DNA of 64,000 nt from Planctomycetota bacterium (GTDB lineage: Bacteria; Planctomycetota; UBA8742; UBA2392): contig JAMQHL010000012.1 in the NCBI GenBank assembly GCA_025993795.1, positions 1-64,000 of the forward strand, read 5' to 3'. The notes beneath the pieces are model-generated. The model did no database searches, was not told the origin of the DNA, and worked only from the letters and a program-made list of their open reading frames with translations. The translations under genes were made by a program, and so were the position numbers. Positions within the stretch are counted from its first letter, which is position 1; every line of letters begins with the position of its first letter. Of the stretch, positions 24,145 through 41,504 are shown in pieces.

Positions 24145-26169
24145 TTACAGCTCGAACGGGTTGGCAGGCACGGGCTTTCGCGCCCTGGGTTGGCCGCCCT
24201 TGCCGTCGGTGATCGGGCATTCCGGCAGCGCACGCAGGATCTTCTTGCCATAGCCCTTCTTGATCACGCGGCTGTCCAGAATCACGACGGTGCCGTAATC
24301 ATCCTTGCGGCGGATCAGCCGGCCGAAACCCTGGCGCAGCTTGATCGTGGCCTCCGGCACCATGTAATCGTTGAAGTCGTTGCCGCCGCTGCGCACCACT
24401 TCTTCCATGCGCGCGGCAATCAGCGGGTCGCTCGGCACCGGAAATGGCAGGCGCACCAGGATCACCGTCGTCAAAGCCTCGCCGGGCACGTCAACGCCCT
24501 GCCAGAAGGTCTCCACGCCGAACAGCACCATCTTCGGGCCTTCCTTGAAGCGCTCCAGCATGCGCCCGCGGCTTAGGCCTTCGCCCTGGCGCAGCAACGT
24601 ATAGCCCTGAAACTCAAGCTGGTTGCGCACGCCGTCATGCACCTTGCGCAGTTGCGAGAAGCTGGTGAACAGTACAAACGTGCCGCCCCGGCTGCGCTTG
24701 ACCGCCGCAATCACTTCTTCCTGGATGCGCCTGTCGTAATCGTCGGCTTGGCCGCCCGCCTTCGGCGGCTCCGGCACGTCGGGGATCACGATCTGCGCAC
24801 GCGCCTTGAAATCAAACGGGCTGCCCACCTGCAGCGCCGTCACGCCCTCATCGGGCACGCCAAGGCGGTTGCGGATGTAGCCGAAGTCGTTGGGGCCGGT
24901 CGCCAGCGTGGCGCTGGTCAGTACCACACTCTTGCAGCGCTCGAACAGCAGCTTGTTCATCAAGGCGCCGACGTGAATTGGCGCCGCCCGCAGCTCGGTG
25001 TTCTGGTCGCGGCCTGAGGTCTCGACCCAGTACACCTGGCCCTCCAGCGACTGCCGGTTGAACGCATCCATGCTCTCGGCGTATTCACCGACGCGGTTGA
25101 CATTCGCCTCAATTTCAAGCCGGTCTTCCTCGTTGCGCGCCTGCAGCATGCCCTCTTTCAGGCGCAGAGCCAACTCGCGCAGCGCGTCGGCCCCTTCGGG
25201 CGGAAACAGTTCGGGTTCATTGACGCGCGCGGGTTTCTGGCGCTGCTCGTGCAGCCAGTTCTCGACTTTCAGGAAGAAGCGTTCGCCTTCGTCGCGGGCC
25301 TTGCGCAGCGCCTCGTGCCCGCCGCGCAGGAAGTCATAGCGCACCAGCAGGCCTTTGTTGCGCCGCGCGTTATAGACCTGCGAAAGCGTGTAGTTCCAGC
25401 CGGCGTGGGTCAGGCGCAGGCCCAGATGCTCACTGGCATAGCGCTCAAGGTCATGGGCCTCGTCGACGATGAGATAGCGGTAGTCGGGCAGGTAATTCAC
25501 GCCTGCGGCTTTCAACGCAAGGTCCGCGCACAGCAGCGCGTGGTTCACGACCAGAATGCTTGAGTTGTACATGCGCCGCTTGGCGGCCTGGTAGAAGCAC
25601 TTTTTCTCGAAGTTGGGGCACTGGCGGCCCATGCAGTTGTTGCGGTCGGACACGGCAAGCTGCCAGACTTCGCTGCTGGGCTCAAAGTCCATGCTGCCCT
25701 TGCTGCCGTCGGGCGTGGTTTCGGCCCAGGCGCTCAGGCGCATCAGCTCGCGCTTTTCGTCGTTGGCGAGCATGCCGTCGGCTTCTGTGCGCAGCGCGGC
25801 TTCAAGCCGCCGCAGCGATACGTAGTTGCTGCGGCCTTTGGCGAGCACGGCGGTGAATTCCTGGTCCCAGACGCTGCGCAGGAACGGAATGTCTTTGCCG
25901 TAAAGCTGCTCTTGCAGCGCAATCGTGCCGGTGCTGATGACCACAGGCCGGTCGTCGACTTTGCCGGCGACGGCGCGCTGGATTGCGGGCACCAGATAGG
26001 CGAAGGATTTGCCGACGCCGGTGCCGGCTTCGACCACGAGATGGGTGTTGCCGGTAAGCGCCAGTTCAACGGCGCGGCCCATGGCAAGCTGTTGCGGGCG
26101 GTCTTCATAGCCGTGCAGCTTGCCGGCAATCAACCCGCCCGGCCCAAGGATGGAGTCCACAAAACTCAT
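24145..26169 (-). CDS. dinG: DinG/XPD-family ATP-dependent helicase
   Basis: The 674-residue protein has Walker A EAGTGVGKS at residues 47-55, a DEAH box (LIVDEAHDLE), and four Cys in the iron-sulfur region (CMGRQCPNFEKKCFYQ with one more outside), followed by SSILVVNHALL. C-terminal motifs LFTSFSQLRKVHD and LPFPVPSDPLI with RRKDDYGTVVILDSR match DinG-type superfamily 2 helicases. DinG unwinds DNA 5' to 3' and resolves R-loops and forks. It is the only DNA-repair gene seen in this window. Confidence 0.9.
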   Translation of the reverse strand: MSFVDSILGPGGLIAGKLHGYEDRPQQLAMGRAVELALTGNTHLVVEAGTGVGKSFAYLVPAIQRAVAGKVDDRPVVISTGTIALQEQLYGKDIPFLRSVWDQEFTAVLAKGRSNYVSLRRLEAALRTEADGMLANDEKRELMRLSAWAETTPDGSKGSMDFEPSSEVWQLAVSDRNNCMGRQCPNFEKKCFYQAAKRRMYNSSILVVNHALLCADLALKAAGVNYLPDYRYLIVDEAHDLERYASEHLGLRLTHAGWNYTLSQVYNARRNKGLLVRYDFLRGGHEALRKARDEGERFFLKVENWLHEQRQKPARVNEPELFPPEGADALRELALRLKEGMLQARNEEDRLEIEANVNRVGEYAESMDAFNRQSLEGQVYWVETSGRDQNTELRAAPIHVGALMNKLLFERCKSVVLTSATLATGPNDFGYIRNRLGVPDEGVTALQVGSPFDFKARAQIVIPDVPEPPKAGGQADDYDRRIQEEVIAAVKRSRGGTFVLFTSFSQLRKVHDGVRNQLEFQGYTLLRQGEGLSRGRMLERFKEGPKMVLFGVETFWQGVDVPGEALTTVILVRLPFPVPSDPLIAARMEEVVRSGGNDFNDYMVPEATIKLRQGFGRLIRRKDDYGTVVILDSRVIKKGYGKKILRALPECPITDGKGGQPRARKPVPANPFEL

Positions 26170-28120: not shown

Positions 28121-29575
<1,455 letters not shown>

Positions 29576-29585
29576 AAAATCAGGG

Positions 29586-29612
29586 AGCCCCGACCGTACG
29601 GTCGGGGCTTTT
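29586..29612 (+). terminator. Intrinsic terminator after glnA
   Basis: AGCCCCGACCGT and ACGGTCGGGGCT (29586-29609) form a perfect 24-bp palindrome, followed by TTTT. It starts 10 bp after the glnA stop codon. Confidence 0.85.
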
Positions 29613-29717: not shown

Positions 29718-30431
29718 ATGTCGCGCACCCTTGAACTGGAAATTCTCCCGCAACCCGATGACCAGACCTGTGGCGTGACGTGCCTGCACGCGGTGTATGG
29801 CTATTACGGGCTCAAGCTCGAGCTGCCGGCGCTGATTGACGAGGTCGAACACCTGAAATCAGGCGGGACGCTTGGCGTACTGCTGGGGATTGATGCCCTG
29901 CGGCGCGGCTTTGACGTCACCCTGTACACCTACAACCTGAACCTGTTTGACCCGGTCTGGTTCCAGGCGGGTGTGAACATCCAGGACAAGCTGCTCCAGC
30001 AGGCCGCCTTCAAGAACCACCCAAGGCTAACGGCTGCAACGCGCGGCTATGTCGAATTCCTGGACACGGGCGGCAAGGTGAAGTACGAAAACCTTTCACC
30101 CAACCTGATTCGCCGCCACCTGAAAAAGGGCGTGCCGCTGCTGACGGGCCTCAGCGCGACTTACCTGTACGGCACAGCCCGGGAGTTCGGCCCCAAGGAC
30201 GACTACGACGACGTGCGCGGTGTACCCAGCGGTCACTTCGTCGTGCTCGTCGGCTACAGCCCGCGCGGGCGCGCGATTGAAGTCGCCGACCCATGGCGCC
30301 AGAATCCGATCACGGGTGAAGACCAGCACTACAGTGTCGATGTGGACCGCCTGATCGCGGCGATTCTGCTGGGTATTGTCACCTACGATGCCAACCTGCT
30401 GGTCATACAACCCAAGAAGGGCGGCGCGTGA
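29718..30431 (+). CDS. C39-like cysteine peptidase, first gene of a putative peptide-amidoligase cluster
   Basis: The 237-residue protein starts at the ATG at 29718, which has no ribosome binding site; an in-frame upstream extension lacks conservation. It contains the C39/papain-like catalytic set: QTCG (Cys), GHFVVLVGYSP (His) and EVADPW (Asp). No signal peptide or transporter domain is present, so it acts in the cytoplasm. It overlaps the next gene by 4 bp. In this cluster it could cleave a peptide or protein that the ligases build or modify. Confidence 0.78.
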   Translation: MSRTLELEILPQPDDQTCGVTCLHAVYGYYGLKLELPALIDEVEHLKSGGTLGVLLGIDALRRGFDVTLYTYNLNLFDPVWFQAGVNIQDKLLQQAAFKNHPRLTAATRGYVEFLDTGGKVKYENLSPNLIRRHLKKGVPLLTGLSATYLYGTAREFGPKDDYDDVRGVPSGHFVVLVGYSPRGRAIEVADPWRQNPITGEDQHYSVDVDRLIAAILLGIVTYDANLLVIQPKKGGA

Positions 30432-31882
30432 ACACACTCATCGTCGTGAACAATCCCGACAACTGGCCGCTGCATATCCCGGGCGTGCAGGTTGTGGGTG
30501 CCCGGGCATACCTGACGGACCGGCGCTTCAGTGACCTCAAGGGCACCAAGGTCTTCAACCTATGCCGCTACTACACATACCAGCGACTGGGCTATTACGT
30601 GTCCCTGCTGGCGGAAGCGCGCGGGCATCGGCCCCTGCCGGACATCAACACGATCACGAACCTTCGCAATCTCAGCATGCCGCGCGGCGAGTCGCAGGAA
30701 CTTGACGAAGAAATTCAGCGTGTGCTGAAGCCCCTCAAGAGCGACGAGTTCACGGTCAGCATCTACTTCGGCCGCAACATGGCGGCGCGCTACAAGCGCC
30801 TGGCGCTCATGCTGTTCAACCTGTTCCCTGCACCGTTCCTGCGCGCCGAGTTCGTGCGTGAAGCCAAGTGGTGGTCCCTGACGCATATCGGGACCATCCC
30901 CTACTCCGAGGTGCCCGAAAGCCACAAAGAGTTCGTGCAGACCAGCGCCGCAGAGTACCTGACGCGCGCTCACCGGCGCCCGTCCAGGCGCAATCGCCCA
31001 AGGTACGACATGGCGATCCTGTTCGACCCCGATGAAGAACACAGGCCCTCCAACGAACGCGCGATCAAGCGCTTCATCGACGCGGCCTGGGATGTCGGGT
31101 TCAACAGCGAAGTCATCAGCAAGGGCGACTACGGGCGCCTGGCCGAATTCGACGCGCTGTTCATCCGCGAAACCACGGCGGTCAACCACCACACCTACCG
31201 CTTCTCGCGCCGCGCATCGAACCTTGGGCTTGTTGTCATGGACGACCCGCTCAGCATCCTGCGTTGCACCAACAAGGTGTACCTAGCGGAGCTGCTGGAG
31301 CACGCCAACATCCCGGCCCCGCGTACAATCATTGCCCATGAGGACAACCTCGACGACGTCATCGTGCACCTTGGATTGCCCTGCGTGCTCAAGCGCCCGG
31401 ATGGCGCATTCAGCCAGGGCGTGAAGAAAGCCACCGACGTCGATGAGCTGCGCCGCATCATCGAAAGCATGCTCGAAGACAGCGACCTCGTCATCGCCCA
31501 GGAGTGGACGCCCACCGACTACGACTGGCGCATCGGAGTCATCGACGGCAAGCCGCTGTACGCCTGCCGCTACCACATGGCTGCGCGTCACTGGCAGATC
31601 GCCAGCGGCGACGACTTCGGCAAGGTGGACACGATGGCCGTGGCGGACGCGCCGCCCAAAGTCATCGACGTGGCTGTGCGCGCCGCGAACCAGATCGGGC
31701 GTGGCCTGTACGGTGTTGACCTGAAAGAGGTCAACGGCCAGCCGATGATCATCGAAGTCAACGACAACCCGAACCTCGACGCGGGCTATGAGGACGCCGT
31801 GCTGAAGGAAGAACTCTGGCGCGAAATCGCCCGCGTGTTCCTCAAGCGCATTGAGGCCAAGCGCGCAGGAGGCGCCCCATGA
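30428..31882 (+). CDS. RLAN-domain RimK-like ATP-grasp ligase
   Basis: The GTG at 30428 overlaps the preceding stop (GTGA). The 484-residue protein has an N-terminal RLAN-like domain (about residues 15-170, with FNLCRYYTYQRLGYYVSLLA) and a C-terminal ATP-grasp domain. The latter shows PCVLKRPDGAFSQGVKKA, an AQEWTPTDYDWRIGVIDG segment and a metal-binding motif MIIEVNDNPNLDAG near the end. ATP-grasp enzymes of this type join a carboxylate to an amine using ATP, as RimK does with glutamate. The substrate is unknown. It ends in a 4-bp overlap with the next gene. Confidence 0.88.
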   Translation: MNTLIVVNNPDNWPLHIPGVQVVGARAYLTDRRFSDLKGTKVFNLCRYYTYQRLGYYVSLLAEARGHRPLPDINTITNLRNLSMPRGESQELDEEIQRVLKPLKSDEFTVSIYFGRNMAARYKRLALMLFNLFPAPFLRAEFVREAKWWSLTHIGTIPYSEVPESHKEFVQTSAAEYLTRAHRRPSRRNRPRYDMAILFDPDEEHRPSNERAIKRFIDAAWDVGFNSEVISKGDYGRLAEFDALFIRETTAVNHHTYRFSRRASNLGLVVMDDPLSILRCTNKVYLAELLEHANIPAPRTIIAHEDNLDDVIVHLGLPCVLKRPDGAFSQGVKKATDVDELRRIIESMLEDSDLVIAQEWTPTDYDWRIGVIDGKPLYACRYHMAARHWQIASGDDFGKVDTMAVADAPPKVIDVAVRAANQIGRGLYGVDLKEVNGQPMIIEVNDNPNLDAGYEDAVLKEELWREIARVFLKRIEAKRAGGAP

Positions 31883-33093
31883 CGCTGCATCTCTGGCAGG
31901 GCTTCGGCGTTGAGCTTGAGTACATGATCGTCGATCGGCAGACGCTTGCAGCACGGCCCATCAGTGACGATTTGCTCAAGGCGGTCGGTGCGCAAGGCGG
32001 CGACATCGAACGCGGCGATGCGGCATGGTCCAACGAGCTGGTCCTGCACGTGATCGAGTTCAAGACCAACGGCCCGGCGCCCGCCCTGGCCGCCCTGCCC
32101 GCCTTGTTCAACGAGCAGGTTCGCGCCGCCAACGCCGCACTTGAGCCCATGGGCGCGATGCTGCTGCCCGGCGGCATGCACCCATACTTTGACCCCGCCA
32201 CCGAAACGCGCATCTGGCCCCACGACTACAACGTCGTCTATGAAACCTACAACCGCATCTTTGACTGCCGCGGCCACGGATGGAGCAACCTGCAGGCCAC
32301 GCACCTGAATCTGCCATTTGCCGACGACGCCGAGTTCGCGCAACTGCACGCCGCCATCCGCTACATCCTGCCGCTGCTGCCGGGGCTGGCCGCCGCGTCG
32401 CCGGTCGCGGAAGGGCGCCTGCAACCGGCGCTGGACTTCCGGCTTGTGAACTATGCTCAAAACAGCGCGCGCATCCCAAGCTCCACGGGCGAAGTCGTGC
32501 CTGAGCCGATCTACACGCAGCAGGGCTATTATGAAGGCATCCTGCACAAAATCTGGGCTGACACGGCGCCCTTTGACCCCGACGGCAACCTGCGGGGCGA
32601 GTTCGCCAACGCGCGCGGCGCCATCGCCCGCTTTGACCGCATGGCCGTCGAGATCCGGGTGCTGGACATCCAGGAGTGCCCGCTGGTTGATATCGCGATC
32701 TGCGCCGCGACCGTCGCCGCGCTCAAGGCGCTGATTGCACAGCGCTGGGCGCCACTGGACCAGATTGCCCGCACCGAGGTAAAGCCGCTGGCGGCCATGT
32801 TCCGTGCCGCGATGGTCGATGGCGAAAACACGGTAATCGATGACCTGCCCTATCTGCGCGGCCTGGGTATCGACGAGCCGTTGACCATTGGCGAGGTCTG
32901 GCACCACATCGCGTTTGAAACCGAGCTGGCCGACCCGTGGCGAAAGGTCGTGCGCACGATCGAGCAGCAGGGCACGCTGGCAACTCGCATTCGCCGGGCG
33001 CTCGCCGCTGCGCCCTCCCGCGCGCAGATCGATGGCGTGTACCGGGCGCTCTCGCAGTGCCTTGCCGATGGCCGCATGTTCGAGCCGCAATGA
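31879..33093 (+). CDS. GCS2-like carboxylate-amine ligase
   Basis: The 404-residue protein begins GFGVELEYMIVDRQT, the ELE motif of the glutamate-cysteine ligase 2 (YbdK-like) family. It then has SNELVLHVIEFKTNGPAPA, HNDYN-like PHDYNVVYETYNRIF, the NLQATHLNLPF and ALDFRLVNYAQNSA segments. Family members couple glutamate or another amino acid to an amine with ATP. Start and stop codons overlap both neighbours by 4 bp, so its product is made with theirs. Confidence 0.85.
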   Translation: MTLHLWQGFGVELEYMIVDRQTLAARPISDDLLKAVGAQGGDIERGDAAWSNELVLHVIEFKTNGPAPALAALPALFNEQVRAANAALEPMGAMLLPGGMHPYFDPATETRIWPHDYNVVYETYNRIFDCRGHGWSNLQATHLNLPFADDAEFAQLHAAIRYILPLLPGLAAASPVAEGRLQPALDFRLVNYAQNSARIPSSTGEVVPEPIYTQQGYYEGILHKIWADTAPFDPDGNLRGEFANARGAIARFDRMAVEIRVLDIQECPLVDIAICAATVAALKALIAQRWAPLDQIARTEVKPLAAMFRAAMVDGENTVIDDLPYLRGLGIDEPLTIGEVWHHIAFETELADPWRKVVRTIEQQGTLATRIRRALAAAPSRAQIDGVYRALSQCLADGRMFEPQ

Positions 33094-33776
33094 GGTTCAA
33101 GTCCGTCATTGTCTCGTGCGAACACGCAAGCAACGCGGTGCCGGCGCGCTGGCGCGGCGCATTTCACGGCCACGAAAGCGTGCTGCAGACACACCGGGCG
33201 TGGGACCCGGGTGCCGCGCTGGTGGCGCGAGAACTGGCGCAGGCGCTGAACGCGCCCGCCTTCTTCGGCGAAGTCACGCGCCTGCTGGTTGACCTGAACC
33301 GCAGCGCCGATCATCCGGGCCTGCATTCTGAGTTTATGCCGCAGAGTGCCCGTGCCGAGATGCTGAAACAGTATTGGCAACCATACCGCAAGGCCGCGCG
33401 CGCAGCCGTTGCGCGCGCCCTGAAGCACGGGCCGGCGCTGCATCTTTCGATTCACAGCTTTACCCCCGTGCTGGATGGCAAGGTGCGAACCACCGAGTTC
33501 GGGTTGCTTTACGACCCCGCACGACATGGCGAGAAACAGTTTGTACTGCCATGGCAGCGGGCGCTGAAACGCCTGCTGCCCAACATGCGCACCAGGTTGA
33601 ACAACCCGTACCGGGGCACCAGCGACGGCTGCACCACCGCACTGCGGGCCGAGTTCGGGCCGAGCTATTGCGGTGTTGAACTCGAGATGAACCAGGCATT
33701 CTGTGCCAAGCCGGCGCACGATTGGGCCGATGTGCGGGCCGCCGTCGTTGCGTCCGTCTTGCGAGTACTTGCCTGA
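33090..33776 (+). CDS. N-formylglutamate amidohydrolase-like enzyme
   Basis: The start ATG at 33090 overlaps the previous stop by 4 bp; a frame extended to 32937 would run into the ligase gene. The 228-residue protein has VIVSCEHASNAVP, HRAWDPGAALVAREL and RLLVDLNRSADHPG, matching zinc-dependent N-formylglutamate deformylases. These cleave an amide bond of a glutamate derivative. In this cluster it probably removes a protecting or acyl group from a glutamyl product rather than taking part in histidine catabolism. Confidence 0.85.
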   Translation: MRFKSVIVSCEHASNAVPARWRGAFHGHESVLQTHRAWDPGAALVARELAQALNAPAFFGEVTRLLVDLNRSADHPGLHSEFMPQSARAEMLKQYWQPYRKAARAAVARALKHGPALHLSIHSFTPVLDGKVRTTEFGLLYDPARHGEKQFVLPWQRALKRLLPNMRTRLNNPYRGTSDGCTTALRAEFGPSYCGVELEMNQAFCAKPAHDWADVRAAVVASVLRVLA

Positions 33777-33850
33777 ATTGGCTGACCGTGCAGACCCGCT
33801 CTCATCGTATTGATTAGGGTCGGCATGGTCGCATTTGGGCCACCTGCTAC

Positions 33851-33856
33851 TACAAT
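33851..33856 (+). promoter_or_regulatory. -10 box TACAAT before the DUF3352-like gene
   Basis: TACAAT lies 25 bp before the ATG at 33882, giving a short leader that includes a GGGAG ribosome binding site. No clear -35 box. Confidence 0.4.
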
Positions 33857-33881
33857 GGCAGACCTTGGCGGGAGACGCTGC

Positions 33882-36323
33882 ATGCACGGGCTTACGGTAC
33901 TATGCGCAGTCGCGCTGCTTGCGACAACGCTGTATGCGCAGGACAAGGCAGTCGATATTGCCGTCGCATATCCATCGACCACCATGGTCTATGGCTCGAT
34001 GGACAACAGCCGCCTTACCAAAGACCTTGAACTCGACGAATTGATCAAGTCCCTGGGCAGCGAAACCGGCATGCCGGGCCTCGACGACCTGCTTGTGGAC
34101 CGCCTTGAGCTGCAGCTCACGCCCGCCGAGATCAAGAAACTCATTTCTGACCTCAAGCGTAGCAGTTTCGGGCTGCTTGATGTGGGCGTCACAGGCCCCA
34201 AGTTGCTGGGCGTGTTTGAAGTTGCAGATCTAGCGGCAGTCTCGCGTGCGCTGAGACAGGCAAGGCAGCAGGACCGCGCCACCATCCCTGCTGTCAAGGA
34301 TCACTACGGCACAGATATCTACGCAGTTGAATTTCCAATGCCCGCTGAGGCGATTCAGCCCGGGCGCGGCATGCGCATGAACCCCTTCGGCGGCTGGTTG
34401 CAGGACCAGGAATTCTGGATCAGTGTGTTTCAGGGCCGCTGGCTGGTGGTCAGCAACAGCTTCACAGCAGTCACCGACGCCCTGGACTTCCTTTCGTTTC
34501 CTGATGACACCGTTGACACGCTGATCTCCAGCGCACGGTACCGCGAAGCGATCAAGGAATACAGCAAGCCCGACGCGCTGCTGTATGTCAGCATCGAGTC
34601 GGTAATCAATGCCGTGGAGCGCCTGGGGGGCGACCAGGGTCGCGGCATGATGTGGTGGCAGATGCTTGGGTGGTGGTTCCCGATGGATATAGATGATGGC
34701 GCTGCCGGGTTCATGGTGCGCCTGCTGCAGTATGAGCAGTTCAAAAGTGCATCGGCCGCCATGTGGCTGGATGAAGCCAAAGCCACCATGCGCATTGACG
34801 TCGGGTTTGCGTTTCACAATGCACCGGGCTGGTTTGACGCGCTGCGCATTGAGCCGCAAAAGCGGCCGTTTGCGGACATGATTCCCAGCGACACGACGCT
34901 GGCGCTGACCGAGTGCGTGAAAGACCCGATGGCTCTGTATCGCGAGGTCCAGGAATTCTTCGTAACGCGCGCCAGAACTGCGGGGCAGGACGAACTGGCC
35001 GAAGCATGGGAAAGGTGGGAACAGGGCCTGACCGCCGAAGGCGCCAACCTGGAAGAAATGCTGGGCCACCTCGCCGGCGAGCAGGCGTTGATCCTGCTGC
35101 CCAAGCAGGAAGAGAGCGATACACCGTTTGATCTCCAGCCCGCAACCTATGCCGCCATGTTCTCCGTCAAAGACTGCGCCGCTGCCGAGAAATACCTGTT
35201 CGAGAACCTGCTGCCAAGCCCGCTGGGCGAGTTCCTGCGCCCCGCCGAGGGCGGCTTGACGCCGGTCGAGATTCACAATGGCATCGAGATTCACTATGCG
35301 TCCGTCGGCAACGTGGCGTTCGCGCTGGTGCCGAAGCAAGACGGCTCGGGCGTGCTGATGTTCGGCGAATCCGAAGCCATCAAGCGCATCGTTGACGCGC
35401 ACACCGCGGGCAAGAACGTCGCCACGCTGACTTCATGGAAGGCCGCACAGGCAATGCTGCCTGAGAAATCGAGCATGGGGATGTACCTGAACGCGGGGGC
35501 GCTGATCAAAGCCGTCGGCAACATCTTCAGCTTGTTCAATAACGCATGGTGGTGGGACCAGGAAGGAAACGACGGTTTCGACCGCGACGACACCGACAAA
35601 GACCAGGACCAGATTCCGTACGTATCGGAATTCTTTGGCAACACCGTGATTGCAGGCGGCGCGCAAAGCGAACAGGCGGGCGTGATGCTGCGCCTTGTCG
35701 CTGCGGGTTGGCCGGCGCGCGCGCAAATGCAGGAAATGGTAAGCCATTTCCGCGACGTGAAGCGCAACAGAGAAGTCCGCGACGACCTGTTGAAGGTACG
35801 CGAAGGCGTCCTGGCGCACCTGGCCATCAAGGGCAGCTTGCCCAAGGACATGCCGGCGCTGGTCACCAACGGTTATGTGCGCGATACGGAAGTCACCCAG
35901 GATCCCTTCAGTGGCGACATGAAACTGGAATACAAGCTGGCAGAGGTACCGGAGACAGTGGATTCACGGCAGGCCATCCTGCTGGCATACCAGCCGGCAC
36001 CCGGGTTGCGCGGCAACCACCTGTGTGTTCTGTATAACCAGCACATCGTCGAACTGACGCCCGAGAACCTGACCAAGGCCATTGCCCGCGCCAAGGCCGG
36101 CGAGTCCCTGGAAGAAGCCCTTTACGCCGAGAAGTTGCAGCCGCTGCATAACCAGAACCTGCGCGTTCCGCGCTTTGTTGAAGAGGACTGGGACAACCAG
36201 CTGGAAGTTGTAGTGATCGACGACCAGGGCGAGGAAGAGGTCCTGGAAGTAGAAGAAGATGCCGCGCGTGAAACCACAGAGCGCGTCTTGGACGAGAAAG
36301 AAGCAGCAAAGAAGCAGGACTAG
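33882..36323 (+). CDS. Large secreted protein, DUF3352-like, copy 1
   Basis: The ATG at 33882 follows GGGAG and starts a signal peptide (MHGLTVLCAVALLATTLYAQ). The 813-residue protein looks like the DUF3352 group: segments such as GTDIYAVEFPMPAE, FWISVFQGRWLVVSNS and TLALTECVKDPMALYREVQEF recall proteins that test for low enzyme-like activity or serve as periplasmic scaffolds, with no known catalytic motif. A short Asp-rich stretch (FDRDDTDKDQDQIPY) may bind a cation. It is followed after 46 bp by a paralogue of similar length and layout, so both are probably cotranscribed. Function unknown. Confidence 0.7.
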   Translation: MHGLTVLCAVALLATTLYAQDKAVDIAVAYPSTTMVYGSMDNSRLTKDLELDELIKSLGSETGMPGLDDLLVDRLELQLTPAEIKKLISDLKRSSFGLLDVGVTGPKLLGVFEVADLAAVSRALRQARQQDRATIPAVKDHYGTDIYAVEFPMPAEAIQPGRGMRMNPFGGWLQDQEFWISVFQGRWLVVSNSFTAVTDALDFLSFPDDTVDTLISSARYREAIKEYSKPDALLYVSIESVINAVERLGGDQGRGMMWWQMLGWWFPMDIDDGAAGFMVRLLQYEQFKSASAAMWLDEAKATMRIDVGFAFHNAPGWFDALRIEPQKRPFADMIPSDTTLALTECVKDPMALYREVQEFFVTRARTAGQDELAEAWERWEQGLTAEGANLEEMLGHLAGEQALILLPKQEESDTPFDLQPATYAAMFSVKDCAAAEKYLFENLLPSPLGEFLRPAEGGLTPVEIHNGIEIHYASVGNVAFALVPKQDGSGVLMFGESEAIKRIVDAHTAGKNVATLTSWKAAQAMLPEKSSMGMYLNAGALIKAVGNIFSLFNNAWWWDQEGNDGFDRDDTDKDQDQIPYVSEFFGNTVIAGGAQSEQAGVMLRLVAAGWPARAQMQEMVSHFRDVKRNREVRDDLLKVREGVLAHLAIKGSLPKDMPALVTNGYVRDTEVTQDPFSGDMKLEYKLAEVPETVDSRQAILLAYQPAPGLRGNHLCVLYNQHIVELTPENLTKAIARAKAGESLEEALYAEKLQPLHNQNLRVPRFVEEDWDNQLEVVVIDDQGEEEVLEVEEDAARETTERVLDEKEAAKKQD

Positions 36324-36369
36324 CAACAGACAACGGGCCTTACCTCGCATTACCGACTCGGGAGACGCA

Positions 36370-38940
36370 ATGAGACTGACGATACTGGCTGTGATGGCGG
36401 CGCTGTTGATGGCGCCGGCGCTCTGTGCACAGAAGGTGGCACCCAAGGACGGCGACTTGATTCCGCGCGCCGGCACGCTGGCCTATGCCGTAAGCGACCG
36501 GCCGGAAGCGCTGCTGCACCTGTTTGGGCGTGACGCATCGGGCAAGTGGCGCATCCGCGGCTTTCTTGAGGGCAAGCTTGAAGAAGAGTTTGCCACCGAT
36601 CCCGATGGCGAAGAGGCACGCCGTGCCCGCAGCATCCTCGAATATGTGTCCAACAGCTACGAGGCCATCCAGCGGGCGGAACTCGGCCTGCTGGACGTTA
36701 CTCTCGATGGCCCCAAGTATGTTCTGCTGCTGCACGCGAAATCCGGCCGCAAAATCGACATTGCGCCCGCATTCCTGGCCGAGTACCTGGCCGAAACCCG
36801 CGAGTTCCAGGGGGTAAAATACCTCGAGTACCGCGGCCCGGATGCCACGGAGCCTGCCGACGAAGGTAGTGAGCGCAGAGAAGATGAAGCGCACCGCCCC
36901 GCAGTCAAGATGGGCATGGATCGCTTCTATGTCGCGGCAATGCCCGACGGCGTGATGATCGCCAACTTTGAAAGCAGTATTCGCGAATCCATCCAGCGCC
37001 TCGTCTCCGGGGACTACTCCGAAAGCCTGTCCGGCCGTGCCGAGTTCCAGGAATGGAAAGCTACCCACAAGCCGCACGACCTTTCGTTCTTTCTCGTCGG
37101 GCGCGAACTCCAGAACGCGATTGAGCGCGTTCTCCCCAGCAAAGACCAAAGCGGGGTTGATGCCCAGGGCGTGTACCGCGGCATCGATGACTGGCTGCAA
37201 CTTCGCGAGTACCGGTACGTCGTGTTCGACCTCGACTATGATGAAAGCGCCAGGGCGTTCACGATTGCGGCCGCGTTCAAGACGCGCCGGCAGACGCGCC
37301 TGCTCGAGAAACTGGCGATCGAACCCGCGGACTTCAAGCTTCTTAAGTACGTGCCCACAGGCGCCGTCATGAGCATGGGAGTCCAGCTCGGCGATGCCAG
37401 GAAGACGTTTGAGAACCTGAAAGAGCTCTCGTACGACGTTGAGGGATGGTACGAAGAAGTAATGAAGGGCTTTGGCCGTGCCGTGCCGCCCGATTTTCCG
37501 GACGAGCCGCCGCCCGACGAAGGCATTGAGCCGAAATCGGTACTGCCCGGCATAACGCTGGCCGAGTTGCTGCAGCTGGCCGGCGAGGGAGAAGGCTCTG
37601 GCGACACGGGCGACAAAGAGAGCGAAATCGACCGTATGCTCGCCAAGCTCGACGAAGCACTGGCAGAGTACGGCACCACCGTCGATGAAATCCTGTCGGC
37701 TCTTGGTACCGAGTTGATCGTGCACCTGACGCCAGACCTTGAGCGCGCCAAAGCCAGGGTCTGGGGCACGCCCGACATGGGCGACGTGCTGGCCTCGGGC
37801 ACGCTGGGTGTGGTGATCGGGTTGAAAGACACCGACAAGGCAAGGCAGATCATCGCCGCCGCCCGTGAGAAAGACCCCCGCGGCGCCTTCCGCGGGTTTG
37901 AAAGCCTCGACTATCAGGGTCGCACCCTGATGCTCAGCGCAGAGCATCCCTTCGGATGGTGCTTTACCGACAACGCGCTGGTGCTGACCATCGTGCTGGG
38001 CCTTCAGGACCAGGATGCCACGGCGCCGGTGCTCAGCGGCATCACCGCCATGATTGACGCTTCGCGCAAAACCGGCAGCGGCGGCGCGTTCGTCGCCAAC
38101 GGCAGCAAGTTCCTTGAAGTGGACGTCGGCGCCTTGTCTCGTCTTGAAAACCAGCTGGCCGACCACCAATCCCACAAGCTTGACCGCTACGCGCAGCCGC
38201 CCCTCGAATCCAGCCCGACGCGCTTCATGGACGGCATGACCGTCGCCCTGCGCCTGAGGGAGCACAAAGACGGGGTCGAGATTGCCCTGCGTGTCGCCGG
38301 CATGCCGGACCTGTGGCAGTTTATCAACGGCGAAGCATCGATGATCGGCGGCGCCGGCAGCGCCCGCCGCAACGGCTATAATTATGGCGAAGAAAACCTG
38401 CGCAACCTGTCGCGCGTCCTGCGCGAACGCGCCGAGGCTGAACAGAGCGTAGACCTGGACGAAATGGTCAAAGCGGGCGTGATCCGGGGTGCCGCGCTGC
38501 AACTGCCTTTTGACAAGCGCTGGAAAGGCGAACTTGAGACCCTGGGCTGGATCACGCTTGACCAGGTCACCCGTGACAAAGACGGCAACCTGCCCGAATG
38601 GGTAGACGCCAAAGCCGCCGAAATGATTGAAACCAACGAAAAGGCCGCCTGGCGCTCCCTGAAGCTGATCGACGGAAACGTCGCAGAGCTGGTGCGCAAG
38701 TACAAGACAGGCTACGTCATCGCATATCAGGAGAGCGCCGATACGCTTGAGGGCCACATGGTCCTCTACGCCGACGGCCAGGTCGGATGGCTGGGCGCCA
38801 ACGCGTTCAAGGAAGCCTTGAAGCTGAATGCCGAGGGCAAGCCGGTACCTGCCGAAGAAAACTGGCACGACAGCACGGCACCGGTAGACTCCGGCGAACG
38901 CCTTCCGCCCGATGACCCATGGAACCCGATGGGCAAGTAG
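36370..38940 (+). CDS. Large secreted protein, DUF3352-like, copy 2
   Basis: The ATG at 36370 follows GGAGACGCA and opens a signal peptide (MRLTILAVMAALLMAPALCAQ). The 856-residue protein has the same architecture as its upstream neighbour: an initial RAGTLAYAVSDRPEALLHLFG segment, a GLLDVTLDGPKYVLLLH strand pair, a Pro/Glu-rich linker around residue 385, and a C-terminal half with GHMVLYADGQVGWLG. No catalytic motif is seen. It ends at an inverted repeat shared with the next, opposing gene. Function unknown. Confidence 0.7.
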   Translation: MRLTILAVMAALLMAPALCAQKVAPKDGDLIPRAGTLAYAVSDRPEALLHLFGRDASGKWRIRGFLEGKLEEEFATDPDGEEARRARSILEYVSNSYEAIQRAELGLLDVTLDGPKYVLLLHAKSGRKIDIAPAFLAEYLAETREFQGVKYLEYRGPDATEPADEGSERREDEAHRPAVKMGMDRFYVAAMPDGVMIANFESSIRESIQRLVSGDYSESLSGRAEFQEWKATHKPHDLSFFLVGRELQNAIERVLPSKDQSGVDAQGVYRGIDDWLQLREYRYVVFDLDYDESARAFTIAAAFKTRRQTRLLEKLAIEPADFKLLKYVPTGAVMSMGVQLGDARKTFENLKELSYDVEGWYEEVMKGFGRAVPPDFPDEPPPDEGIEPKSVLPGITLAELLQLAGEGEGSGDTGDKESEIDRMLAKLDEALAEYGTTVDEILSALGTELIVHLTPDLERAKARVWGTPDMGDVLASGTLGVVIGLKDTDKARQIIAAAREKDPRGAFRGFESLDYQGRTLMLSAEHPFGWCFTDNALVLTIVLGLQDQDATAPVLSGITAMIDASRKTGSGGAFVANGSKFLEVDVGALSRLENQLADHQSHKLDRYAQPPLESSPTRFMDGMTVALRLREHKDGVEIALRVAGMPDLWQFINGEASMIGGAGSARRNGYNYGEENLRNLSRVLRERAEAEQSVDLDEMVKAGVIRGAALQLPFDKRWKGELETLGWITLDQVTRDKDGNLPEWVDAKAAEMIETNEKAAWRSLKLIDGNVAELVRKYKTGYVIAYQESADTLEGHMVLYADGQVGWLGANAFKEALKLNAEGKPVPAEENWHDSTAPVDSGERLPPDDPWNPMGK

Positions 38941-39731: not shown

Positions 39732-41504
39732 GTGGTAGAGCAAACACCTGCGCGCAGAATGCGCATTGCCATGGTTCATCCAAAGTTCCCGCCGTCTTTC
39801 TGGAGCTTCGGCTTCATCAAGGACATCGGCGGTTTCAAGACCGTGATGCCGCCGCTCGGGCTGGCGACGCTGGCGGCCCTGACACCGCCTGAGTACGACG
39901 TCGTCATCGTTGACGAGAACATCGAAGAGATCGATTTCGACATGGATGCCGACATCATCGCGCTGTCGTCCATGGCCATCCAGGAAAAGCGCCTGTTTGA
40001 GGTCGCTGACGAGTTCCGGCGACGCGGCTATTTCGTGTGCATGGGCGGGCCGATCTGCAACGTGTTGCCCGGCCGCTGCCGCCCGCACTGCGACGTGCTG
40101 TTTGAGGGCGAAGGCGAATACAACTGGAAGATCTTCCTTGAGCAGTACCAGACGCGCTCGCACAAGGATTACTACTGCCAGGTCGAAAAGATCGACATGC
40201 GCGACACGCCGCCGCCGCGTGTTGACCTGCTGAAGACCGGCAACTATCGCCTGGGCTGCATCCAGACCACTCGCGGCTGCCCGTTCAGCTGCGAGTTCTG
40301 CGACATCATCGTCACGTATGGGCGCAAGGTCCGCGCCAAACCCGTCGAGAATGTCATCGAAGAACTCGAGAACTGGGCCAAAGCCGGCGTAGACTTCATC
40401 ACCATCGCTGACGACAACCTCGTCGGCGACCGCGTGTATGCCAAGAAGATGCTCAAGGCCGTCGGCGACTGGAACCGTGCCCGCAAAGTGCCCATGAGCT
40501 TCTTCGTCGAGATGAGCATCGACGCATGCCGCGACATGGAACTGCTTGAACTGCTGCGCTGGGCCAACGTAACCGAGGCGTTCCTGGGCGTCGAAACGCC
40601 GCGCGCTGCAGGCTTGAAGGAAACCAAGAAGTTCCAGAACGCCGCCACGCCGCTTGCTGATGCCATCAAGATTATCCAGAGCTACGGCATGGTGACTGTG
40701 GCGGGCATGATCGTCGGGTTTGATAACGACGACGCCGCGATTTTTGAAGACCAGTACGTCTTTCTGCAGGAAGCGGGCATCCCCATTGTCATGCTGGGCA
40801 TTCTGCAGGCCATTCCGCGCACACCGCTGTATGAGCGGCTTGAGAAGGCCGGCCGCCTGCGCAGTGCGGCGCAGGGCAACAACACGCTCAGCTTCACCAA
40901 CCTTGAGCCGTTGCAGATGAGCTATGAAGAACTCATCAACGGTTACCGCGAACTGTTCGCGCGCATCTATACATGGGAAGCTGTCGGCGACCGCTGGCTT
41001 GCCAACGTGCGCCAGTGGGGCCGAAAGCGCATCATCCCCGCGCACATCGGAAAAGCCGGCGAGAAGAGTTTCGCCGACGCGCCCGAGCGCAAGTGGCTTC
41101 AGAAGCCGCTGGGCCGCTTCAAGTTCCAGCTTGTGCTGGCGACACTGATGATCCTGAAGTACTACTTCGCGGGCGGAAAGGCCAAGCGCCGCTTTGCTTT
41201 CCGCATGTTCTGGAACACGTTGAAGCTCGCGCCCAGCGCAATGCTGCAGACGCTGAACTACATGGCCTATTTCATTCACCTGCGTGAATACGCCGACCGC
41301 GTCGTCGCCAAGCAGTACCGCTTCGATTACATGCTCACCGAGGCCAACCAGCAGTTGCACGCCAACAAGTTCGGCGAAGGCGGCAACGTCAACATGGTCA
41401 AGCAGGAAAAGAACGCTGCAACCAAGATCAATGTCAACGATGCCTATGCCGGCGCCGAAGTCACCTCTGACGTGGCCGACACGCTGGAAGCGGCAGCCAA
41501 GTAG
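39732..41504 (+). CDS. B12-binding domain radical SAM protein with DUF4070-like C-terminus
   Basis: The GTG start at 39732 follows GAGG. The 590-residue protein has an N-terminal cobalamin-binding-like Rossmann domain (MHPKFPPSFWSF to about 150), then a radical SAM core with Cys183, Cys187 and Cys190 in the CX3CX2C order (GCPFSCEFCDI), which binds the 4Fe-4S cluster. The C-terminal part resembles DUF4070, found in HpnP-like methylases. Such enzymes methylate unreactive carbons, for example in hopanoids. No hopanoid genes lie next to it, so the substrate stays open. A hairpin terminator follows. Confidence 0.88.
   Translation: MVEQTPARRMRIAMVHPKFPPSFWSFGFIKDIGGFKTVMPPLGLATLAALTPPEYDVVIVDENIEEIDFDMDADIIALSSMAIQEKRLFEVADEFRRRGYFVCMGGPICNVLPGRCRPHCDVLFEGEGEYNWKIFLEQYQTRSHKDYYCQVEKIDMRDTPPPRVDLLKTGNYRLGCIQTTRGCPFSCEFCDIIVTYGRKVRAKPVENVIEELENWAKAGVDFITIADDNLVGDRVYAKKMLKAVGDWNRARKVPMSFFVEMSIDACRDMELLELLRWANVTEAFLGVETPRAAGLKETKKFQNAATPLADAIKIIQSYGMVTVAGMIVGFDNDDAAIFEDQYVFLQEAGIPIVMLGILQAIPRTPLYERLEKAGRLRSAAQGNNTLSFTNLEPLQMSYEELINGYRELFARIYTWEAVGDRWLANVRQWGRKRIIPAHIGKAGEKSFADAPERKWLQKPLGRFKFQLVLATLMILKYYFAGGKAKRRFAFRMFWNTLKLAPSAMLQTLNYMAYFIHLREYADRVVAKQYRFDYMLTEANQQLHANKFGEGGNVNMVKQEKNAATKINVNDAYAGAEVTSDVADTLEAAAK

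Follow-up and report, generated by a model that had tools for sequence, protein, structure and literature searches.

Introduction

ATP-grasp ligases encoded in operons with COOH-NH2 ligases or with GNAT acetyltransferases are known, and they often carry out successive ligations that give rise to peptide-derived metabolites (PMC4431377). The protein families have been published, as has the concept of operons of this sort, and the cluster reported here belongs to a known kind. In 2009, Iyer, Abhiman, Burroughs and Aravind reportedly described amidoligase neighbourhoods in which ATP-grasp ligases occur with GCS2-type ligases or GNATs and with peptidases, and they are said to have defined the RLAN domain (PF14401) in that context. 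The literature that we searched, which did not include the 2009 amidoligase paper, yielded no article characterising RLAN, PF14401 or the present gene set.

Several described enzymes resemble parts of the cluster. RimK, LysX and ArgX are ATP-grasp alpha-glutamate ligases. N-acetylglutaminylglutamine (NAGGN) synthetase (TIGR03103) carries a GNAT domain and then an ATP-grasp domain in one protein and makes an N-acetylated dipeptide amide. For butirosin, BtrJ is an ATP-grasp enzyme and BtrH a papain-like acyltransferase.

Results

The window that we analysed is a 64,000-nucleotide stretch of a Planctomycetota metagenome-assembled genome (MAG; 3.29 Mb, 84.9% complete), in which a genome search found RLAN and FGase genes once each. 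Four open reading frames at 29718-33776, with three 4-bp overlaps, have exactly the coordinates given in the first-pass annotation of this DNA:

29586..29609, no strand assigned: GC-rich hairpin with a 10-11 bp stem and a 4-base loop, between glnA and the cluster (fold z -2.6)
29718..30431, + strand: putative C39-like papain-fold cysteine enzyme, 237 aa (PF13529/PF03412, invariant residues, AlphaFold model)
30428..30431, + strand: C39/RLAN junction, GTGA, 4-bp overlap (sequence)
30428..31882, + strand: RLAN domain (residues ~25-172) followed by a RimK/LysX-type ATP-grasp ligase domain (~193-470), 484 aa, GTG start (PF14401, PF08443, AlphaFold model)
31879..31882, + strand: RLAN/GCS2 junction, ATGA, 4-bp overlap (sequence)
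31879..33093, + strand: predicted GCS2-superfamily carboxylate-amine ligase, 404 aa (PF04107, invariant residues, weak YbdK profile match)
33090..33093, + strand: GCS2/FGase junction, ATGA, 4-bp overlap (sequence)
33090..33776, + strand: Atu2144-type Zn-hydrolase-like protein with an FGase domain (PF05013), 228 aa, an optional member (PF05013, phmmer, invariant residues)

All four proteins exceed the curated Pfam cut-offs, and the original family calls hold at the domain or superfamily level. Alignments with 41-55 relatives per protein showed the active sites to be intact: the Cys/His and ATP-grasp residues, whose absence was to have marked the cluster as coincidental, are invariant. The functions that we give to the invariant residues are presumed from general knowledge of the folds.

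In the RLAN protein, the N-terminal domain scores 154 bits against PF14401 (cut-off 25) and the ATP-grasp half 41.8 bits against PF08443 RimK (cut-off 21), an arrangement that identifies it as an RLAN-type ligase, together with a gene neighbourhood holding either GCS2 plus a C39-like gene or a GNAT. Lys283, Lys322, Glu443 and Asn445 of the ATP-grasp domain are invariant among the aligned relatives, the last two being the Glu/Asn pair of an EVNDNPN motif. In the AlphaFold model this half matches RimK, LysX, ArgX and Ddl, and a fold search with the whole protein returned ATP-grasp proteins only. The protein thus shares the fold and the ATP-grasp residues of its C-terminal half with RimK, LysX and ArgX, but differs from them in its extra RLAN domain, in its operon and in scoring below the models for RimK (NF007764, 42.2 versus 331; TIGR00768, 78.7 versus 143.4) and LysX (TIGR02144, 73.5 versus 275.6).

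The GCS2 protein scores 80.5 bits against PF04107 (cut-off 21) and keeps the catalytic Glu, His and Arg residues of the superfamily, with Glu12, Glu14, Glu53, Glu60, His142 and Arg260 among those invariant in 55 sequences; it is a predicted amide-forming ligase with an intact site. It shares its superfamily and catalytic-residue pattern with YbdK and the plant-type glutamate-cysteine ligases and weakly matches YbdK (1r8g) in a profile comparison, but it reaches only 38-40 bits against cut-offs of 176-332 for these enzymes (TIGR02050, 38.2 versus 176.4; PRK13517-type model, 40.3 versus 332) and by its sequence forms a subfamily apart from them. This subfamily is linked to RLAN in every genome sampled except G023 and G137 (G and L numbers are our labels for genomes and loci).

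The FGase protein scores 94.7 bits against PF05013 (cut-off 28.9), matches Atu2144 (2odf; phmmer E 6.5e-17) and retains Glu11, His12 and His122 in all aligned relatives; its score against the model for HutG, N-formylglutamate deformylase, is 14.7 versus 278.75 (TIGR02017). Curated sub-family names were accordingly rejected for the ligases and the hydrolase, scores for RimK, LysX, YbdK, glutamate-cysteine ligase and HutG lying far below cut-off throughout. A glutamyl or similar amide had been proposed at first; with none of the models for RimK, YbdK, glutamate-cysteine ligase or HutG passed, 'glutamyl' stays a guess.

The C39-like protein matches PF13529 (36.7 bits, cut-off 24) and PF03412 (26.4 bits, cut-off 22). 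Gln12, Cys18, His173 and Asp191 occur without exception in 51 aligned sequences, as in papain, with Gln12 the predicted oxyanion residue and Cys18 the predicted nucleophile, acting with His173 and Asp191. The AlphaFold model (pLDDT 94) finds its best PDB folds in PeiR, which is a pseudomurein endoisopeptidase, in C39 double-glycine peptidases and in the phytochelatin synthase Alr0975, with TM-scores near 0.5 (normalised by query length). The protein thus has the papain-type catalytic residues and fold expected of Peptidase C39, and this part of the earlier 'C39-like peptidase' assignment stands; the choice of peptidase over acyl-transferase is not supported. An ATP-grasp ligase with a papain-fold partner recalls BtrJ/BtrH, where acyl transfer is the feature of BtrH, but the cluster has no carrier protein, and none of its proteins matched PF14399 (BtrH_N) in the Pfam search. 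PADLOC-DB, the anti-phage defence collection, holds no family matching any of the four proteins.

A search with the GCS2 protein, at one genome per species, gave 455 relatives. The best 80, which were taken further, came from Planctomycetota, Bacteroidota, Balneolota, Acidobacteriota, Thermodesulfobacteriota, Myxococcota, Pseudomonadota (including Gammaproteobacteria), Verrucomicrobiota, Hydrogenedentota, Sumerlaeota, Chlamydiota and others. Among these 80 loci, nearly all with enough flank have the order C39-RLAN-GCS2, and in about two thirds of them the FGase gene comes next. The RLAN-GCS2 junction is at most 30 bp in 60 of 69 related loci and an overlap of exactly 4 bp in 33 of the 69. The proposed operon organisation is borne out by this closeness and by the three overlaps in the window.

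Because these loci had been picked through GCS2, each gene was also sought separately in 292 Planctomycetota genomes. RLAN was found in 77, GCS2 in 61, C39 in 56 and FGase in 52. GCS2 and RLAN occur together in 59 genomes, in all 59 on the same strand and within 6 kb, so the co-occurrence that the first-pass annotation had put forward as a test is upheld. The Fisher p for GCS2 with RLAN is about 1e-43, within a census range of 1e-24 to 1e-51, values that ignore kinship; the co-location of all 59 pairs is independent of them. The triad of C39, RLAN and GCS2 is present in 55 of the 292 genomes and the quartet with FGase in 41, and FGase, absent from 14 of the 55 triad genomes, is an optional member of the cluster. 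Equal membership of all four genes, as first assumed, is not supported, given these 14 triads and the lack of C39 where GNAT and RLAN are fused.

The window comes from an incomplete MAG (84.9%), and the cluster might in principle be a chance neighbourhood or an assembly artefact. The same arrangement in isolate genomes of Pontibacter, Adhaeribacter, Blastopirellula, Thalassoglobus and Nafulsella, and the 59 co-located pairs of the census, refute this explanation, whose probability we regard as negligible. The cluster is a real, conserved pathway with two predicted amide-forming enzymes and not a coincidence, a view supported by domains, residues, census and junctions.

Flanking genes were compared all-against-all (ORFs of at least 70 aa) in the first 102 loci. 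A shared fifth gene, a possibility raised at the outset, was not found: none is common across phyla, and none extends beyond close kin or one Bacteroidota lineage. Upstream of the cluster lies a type I glnA, which was rejected as a pathway member: it precedes the cluster in close relatives only, and the strong hairpin at 29586..29609 stands between. This hairpin is a likely terminator dividing glnA from the cluster; the T-run reported by the strict scan lies on the - strand, and the + strand has four T only. A sigma-70 promoter scan, uninformative for this phylum, found none.

The flanks also bear on a route to a ribosomally made peptide (RiPP), in which the C39 protein would cut a double-glycine leader and the ATP-grasp enzyme would cross-link the core. 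C39 peptidases do cut such leaders, and graspetides are products of ATP-grasp enzymes (PMC8939145). The loci share no ABC transporter, fused or common to them, and no linked gene of at least 70 aa across phyla; a GG-leader precursor, fused or linked, was likewise absent from what the flanks have in common at this ORF size, and the ATP-grasp domain is RimK/LysX-like. We know of no role for GCS2 in RiPP or graspetide pathways, and we consider this route very unlikely.

Where RLAN genes occur apart from GCS2, the neighbour is mostly a GNAT acetyltransferase. In Planctomycetota, a GNAT-DUF3335 fusion lies beside RLAN at L103-L106, L110 and L120, and GNAT is fused to the RLAN N-terminus at three loci (L107, L109, L112). 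A separate GNAT gene accompanies RLAN at L108, L121 and L122 and at the gammaproteobacterial L196; GNAT genes are abundant, and a single unfused neighbour of this kind could be due to chance. RLAN is solitary at L111, L113 and L180. DUF3335 is homologous to the C39 protein of the window (hhalign 97%, E 3.8e-11). In five Planctomycetota genomes (L114-L118), RLAN-ATP-grasp and GCS2 are joined in a single polypeptide some 1000 aa long, from which it follows that both enzymes very probably act on one intermediate. Neither the GNAT version nor these fusions had appeared in the first-pass annotation.

Gammaproteobacteria were sampled by RLAN alone, which was present in 42 of 184 genomes. In the 40 newly fetched loci, RLAN is accompanied by GNAT-DUF3335 in 30 and by GCS2 (type I) in six; this set also includes, besides L196, L190 with C39 and RLAN only, the solitary RLAN at L180 and L161, which is cut by a contig end; G303 and G304 are two further, already known, GCS2-type genomes. 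Every genome with a full-length RLAN in the Planctomycetota and Gammaproteobacteria samples has a single RLAN gene, and the GCS2 and GNAT forms therefore do not coexist in these samples.

The same genomes speak to the idea of a glutathione-like thiol or gamma-glutamyl tripeptide, with GCS2 acting as GshA, RLAN-ATP-grasp as GshB and C39 as phytochelatin synthase. The two enzyme classes match and stand in the matching logical order, and Alr0975 is among the C39 fold matches. However, the GshB N-domain is present in all but G303 and G304 of the 42 RLAN-bearing Gammaproteobacteria, the six newly found type-I genomes included; the GNAT version would make no gamma-glutamyl bond; and the curated glutamate-cysteine ligase models fail. 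Replacement of glutathione is excluded for Gammaproteobacteria by the near-universal GshB N-domain in RLAN-bearing genomes, and we judge the idea as a whole improbable.

In a tree of RLAN proteins, the GCS2-type and the GNAT-DUF3335-type sequences form two groups, and one exchange of GCS2 and GNAT between lineages is well supported. The best trees place the GNAT-RLAN fusions among the GCS2-type sequences, which favours an independent second swap, though not significantly: forcing all GNAT-linked RLAN sequences together costs a delta lnL of 16.7 and is not rejected (p-AU 0.10). These fusions have the domain order of NAGGN synthetase, but the ATP-grasp match to TIGR03103 is marginal (E 0.016), no glutamine amidotransferase partner is in view, and the window itself carries GCS2, not GNAT. 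C39 and DUF3335 are both absent from G131, G130, G274 and G151, which have a GNAT-RLAN fusion or a lone GNAT with RLAN; G131 and G274 are complete genomes with the fusion and no detected protease. C39 is thus dispensable in that form, which leaves RLAN-ATP-grasp plus an amine-acylating enzyme as the common core.

The main rival to a small-molecule product is protein modification, in which a house-keeping protein would receive one or several amino acids from RLAN-ATP-grasp, GCS2 would add or cap a further residue, and C39 and FGase would remove them. The nearest solved ATP-grasp relatives, RimK and LysX/ArgX, work on proteins; writer and eraser enzymes adjoin; no precursor gene is linked; and there is a precedent in RimK and the protease RimB, which act on ribosomal protein S6 (PMC12239564). 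On the other hand, the RLAN protein fails the curated RimK and LysX models, and the fusion with no detected protease in the complete genomes G131 and G274 resembles small-molecule synthesis and not reversible tagging. Protein tagging is, in our estimate, rather unlikely.

Discussion

The cluster resembles the neighbourhoods of the 2009 paper in placing an ATP-grasp ligase in an operon with a COOH-NH2 ligase or GNAT and a peptidase. To these, counts are added here for the alternation of GCS2 and GNAT, the RLAN-GCS2 and GNAT-RLAN fusions, the single RLAN gene per genome and the optional FGase; the evidence for exchange and fusion may or may not stand in that paper already.

We suggest, at about even odds in our own estimate, that the cluster encodes a non-ribosomal two-step route to a short capped peptide or amide, which C39 and FGase would trim or recycle. 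The order of steps, the substrates and the product are inferred as follows. GCS2 would use ATP to form an amide between a carboxylate and a primary metabolite's amine, a step that the GNAT acetyltransferase would perform in other bacteria; with GNAT in place of GCS2, the first step is probably an acylation of the same amine. The RLAN ATP-grasp enzyme would then phosphorylate a carboxylate and couple a second amine, the RLAN domain holding the intermediate meanwhile. Afterwards the papain-like C39 protein may cleave or transfer an acyl or amide group, and the FGase-type hydrolase may remove the acyl cap or recycle the product. Because no precursor gene is needed, the product would be built from ordinary metabolites. 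The missing precursor gene would be explained equally well by tagging of a widely conserved protein.

A broader and more tentative proposal takes RLAN-ATP-grasp as one widespread module, in which GCS2 and GNAT would be exchangeable means of the first acylation and C39 and FGase later add-ons, and which might make one undescribed class of capped dipeptide-like metabolites in roughly one in four of the sampled genomes of Planctomycetota and Gammaproteobacteria.

So common a module, encoding two ligases, points to a widespread undescribed metabolite or protein modification. The alternation of GCS2 and GNAT narrows its chemistry to the acylation of an amine and a second, ATP-dependent ligation, and the fusions point to enzymes that share an intermediate.

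Genomic surroundings of the cluster

The immediate upstream neighbour of the four-gene cluster in the window is glnA, followed by a strong hairpin, and this adjacency is restricted to close relatives. Just 3' of the cluster lie two large tandem proteins, which clustering relates to one another, grouping them with close relatives only; the first of them has no NCBIfam match. Features noted outside the cluster are as follows.

24145-26169, minus strand: DinG/YoaA-like helicase (YoaA model, 544 bits vs a cut-off of 680)
28121-29575, plus strand: type I glutamine synthetase glnA (TIGR00653, 662 bits)
29586-29609: strong hairpin 3' of glnA
33810-38940, plus strand: two large tandem proteins (837 and 893 aa)
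39732-41504, plus strand: B12-binding radical SAM protein, matching the BchE, P-methylase and hopanoid-methylase models, below the cut-off in each

Variant ligase and hydrolase loci

At two loci, on two contigs of a single Pirellulales MAG, GCS2-FGase (L019, 7971-9927; L064, 4963-6913) adjoins prolyl-tRNA synthetase, and C39 and RLAN are absent within the locus; perhaps this is a detached pair, or else a strain mixture. GCS2 is divided between two overlapping frames in L052 (7938-9243) and in genome G014 (C1:1499033-1500260), likely by a frameshift, whether genuine or arising from assembly error.

Some Planctomycetota (L120, L121, L122) carry the RLAN domain and the ATP-grasp domain as two adjacent separate genes. 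In an unusual pairing, a true RimK-type ligase with a TrkA_C domain (L117, 1362-2555) adjoins a cluster encoding the RLAN-GCS2 fusion.

Adjoining the GNAT-type RLAN modules, in which a GNAT acetyltransferase takes the place of GCS2, a divergent ORF cluster is common to L160, L162, L168 and L175. Its L162 member is a zinc carboxypeptidase (Peptidase_M14), and this ORF is possibly the equivalent, in GNAT-type modules, of the FGase hydrolase.
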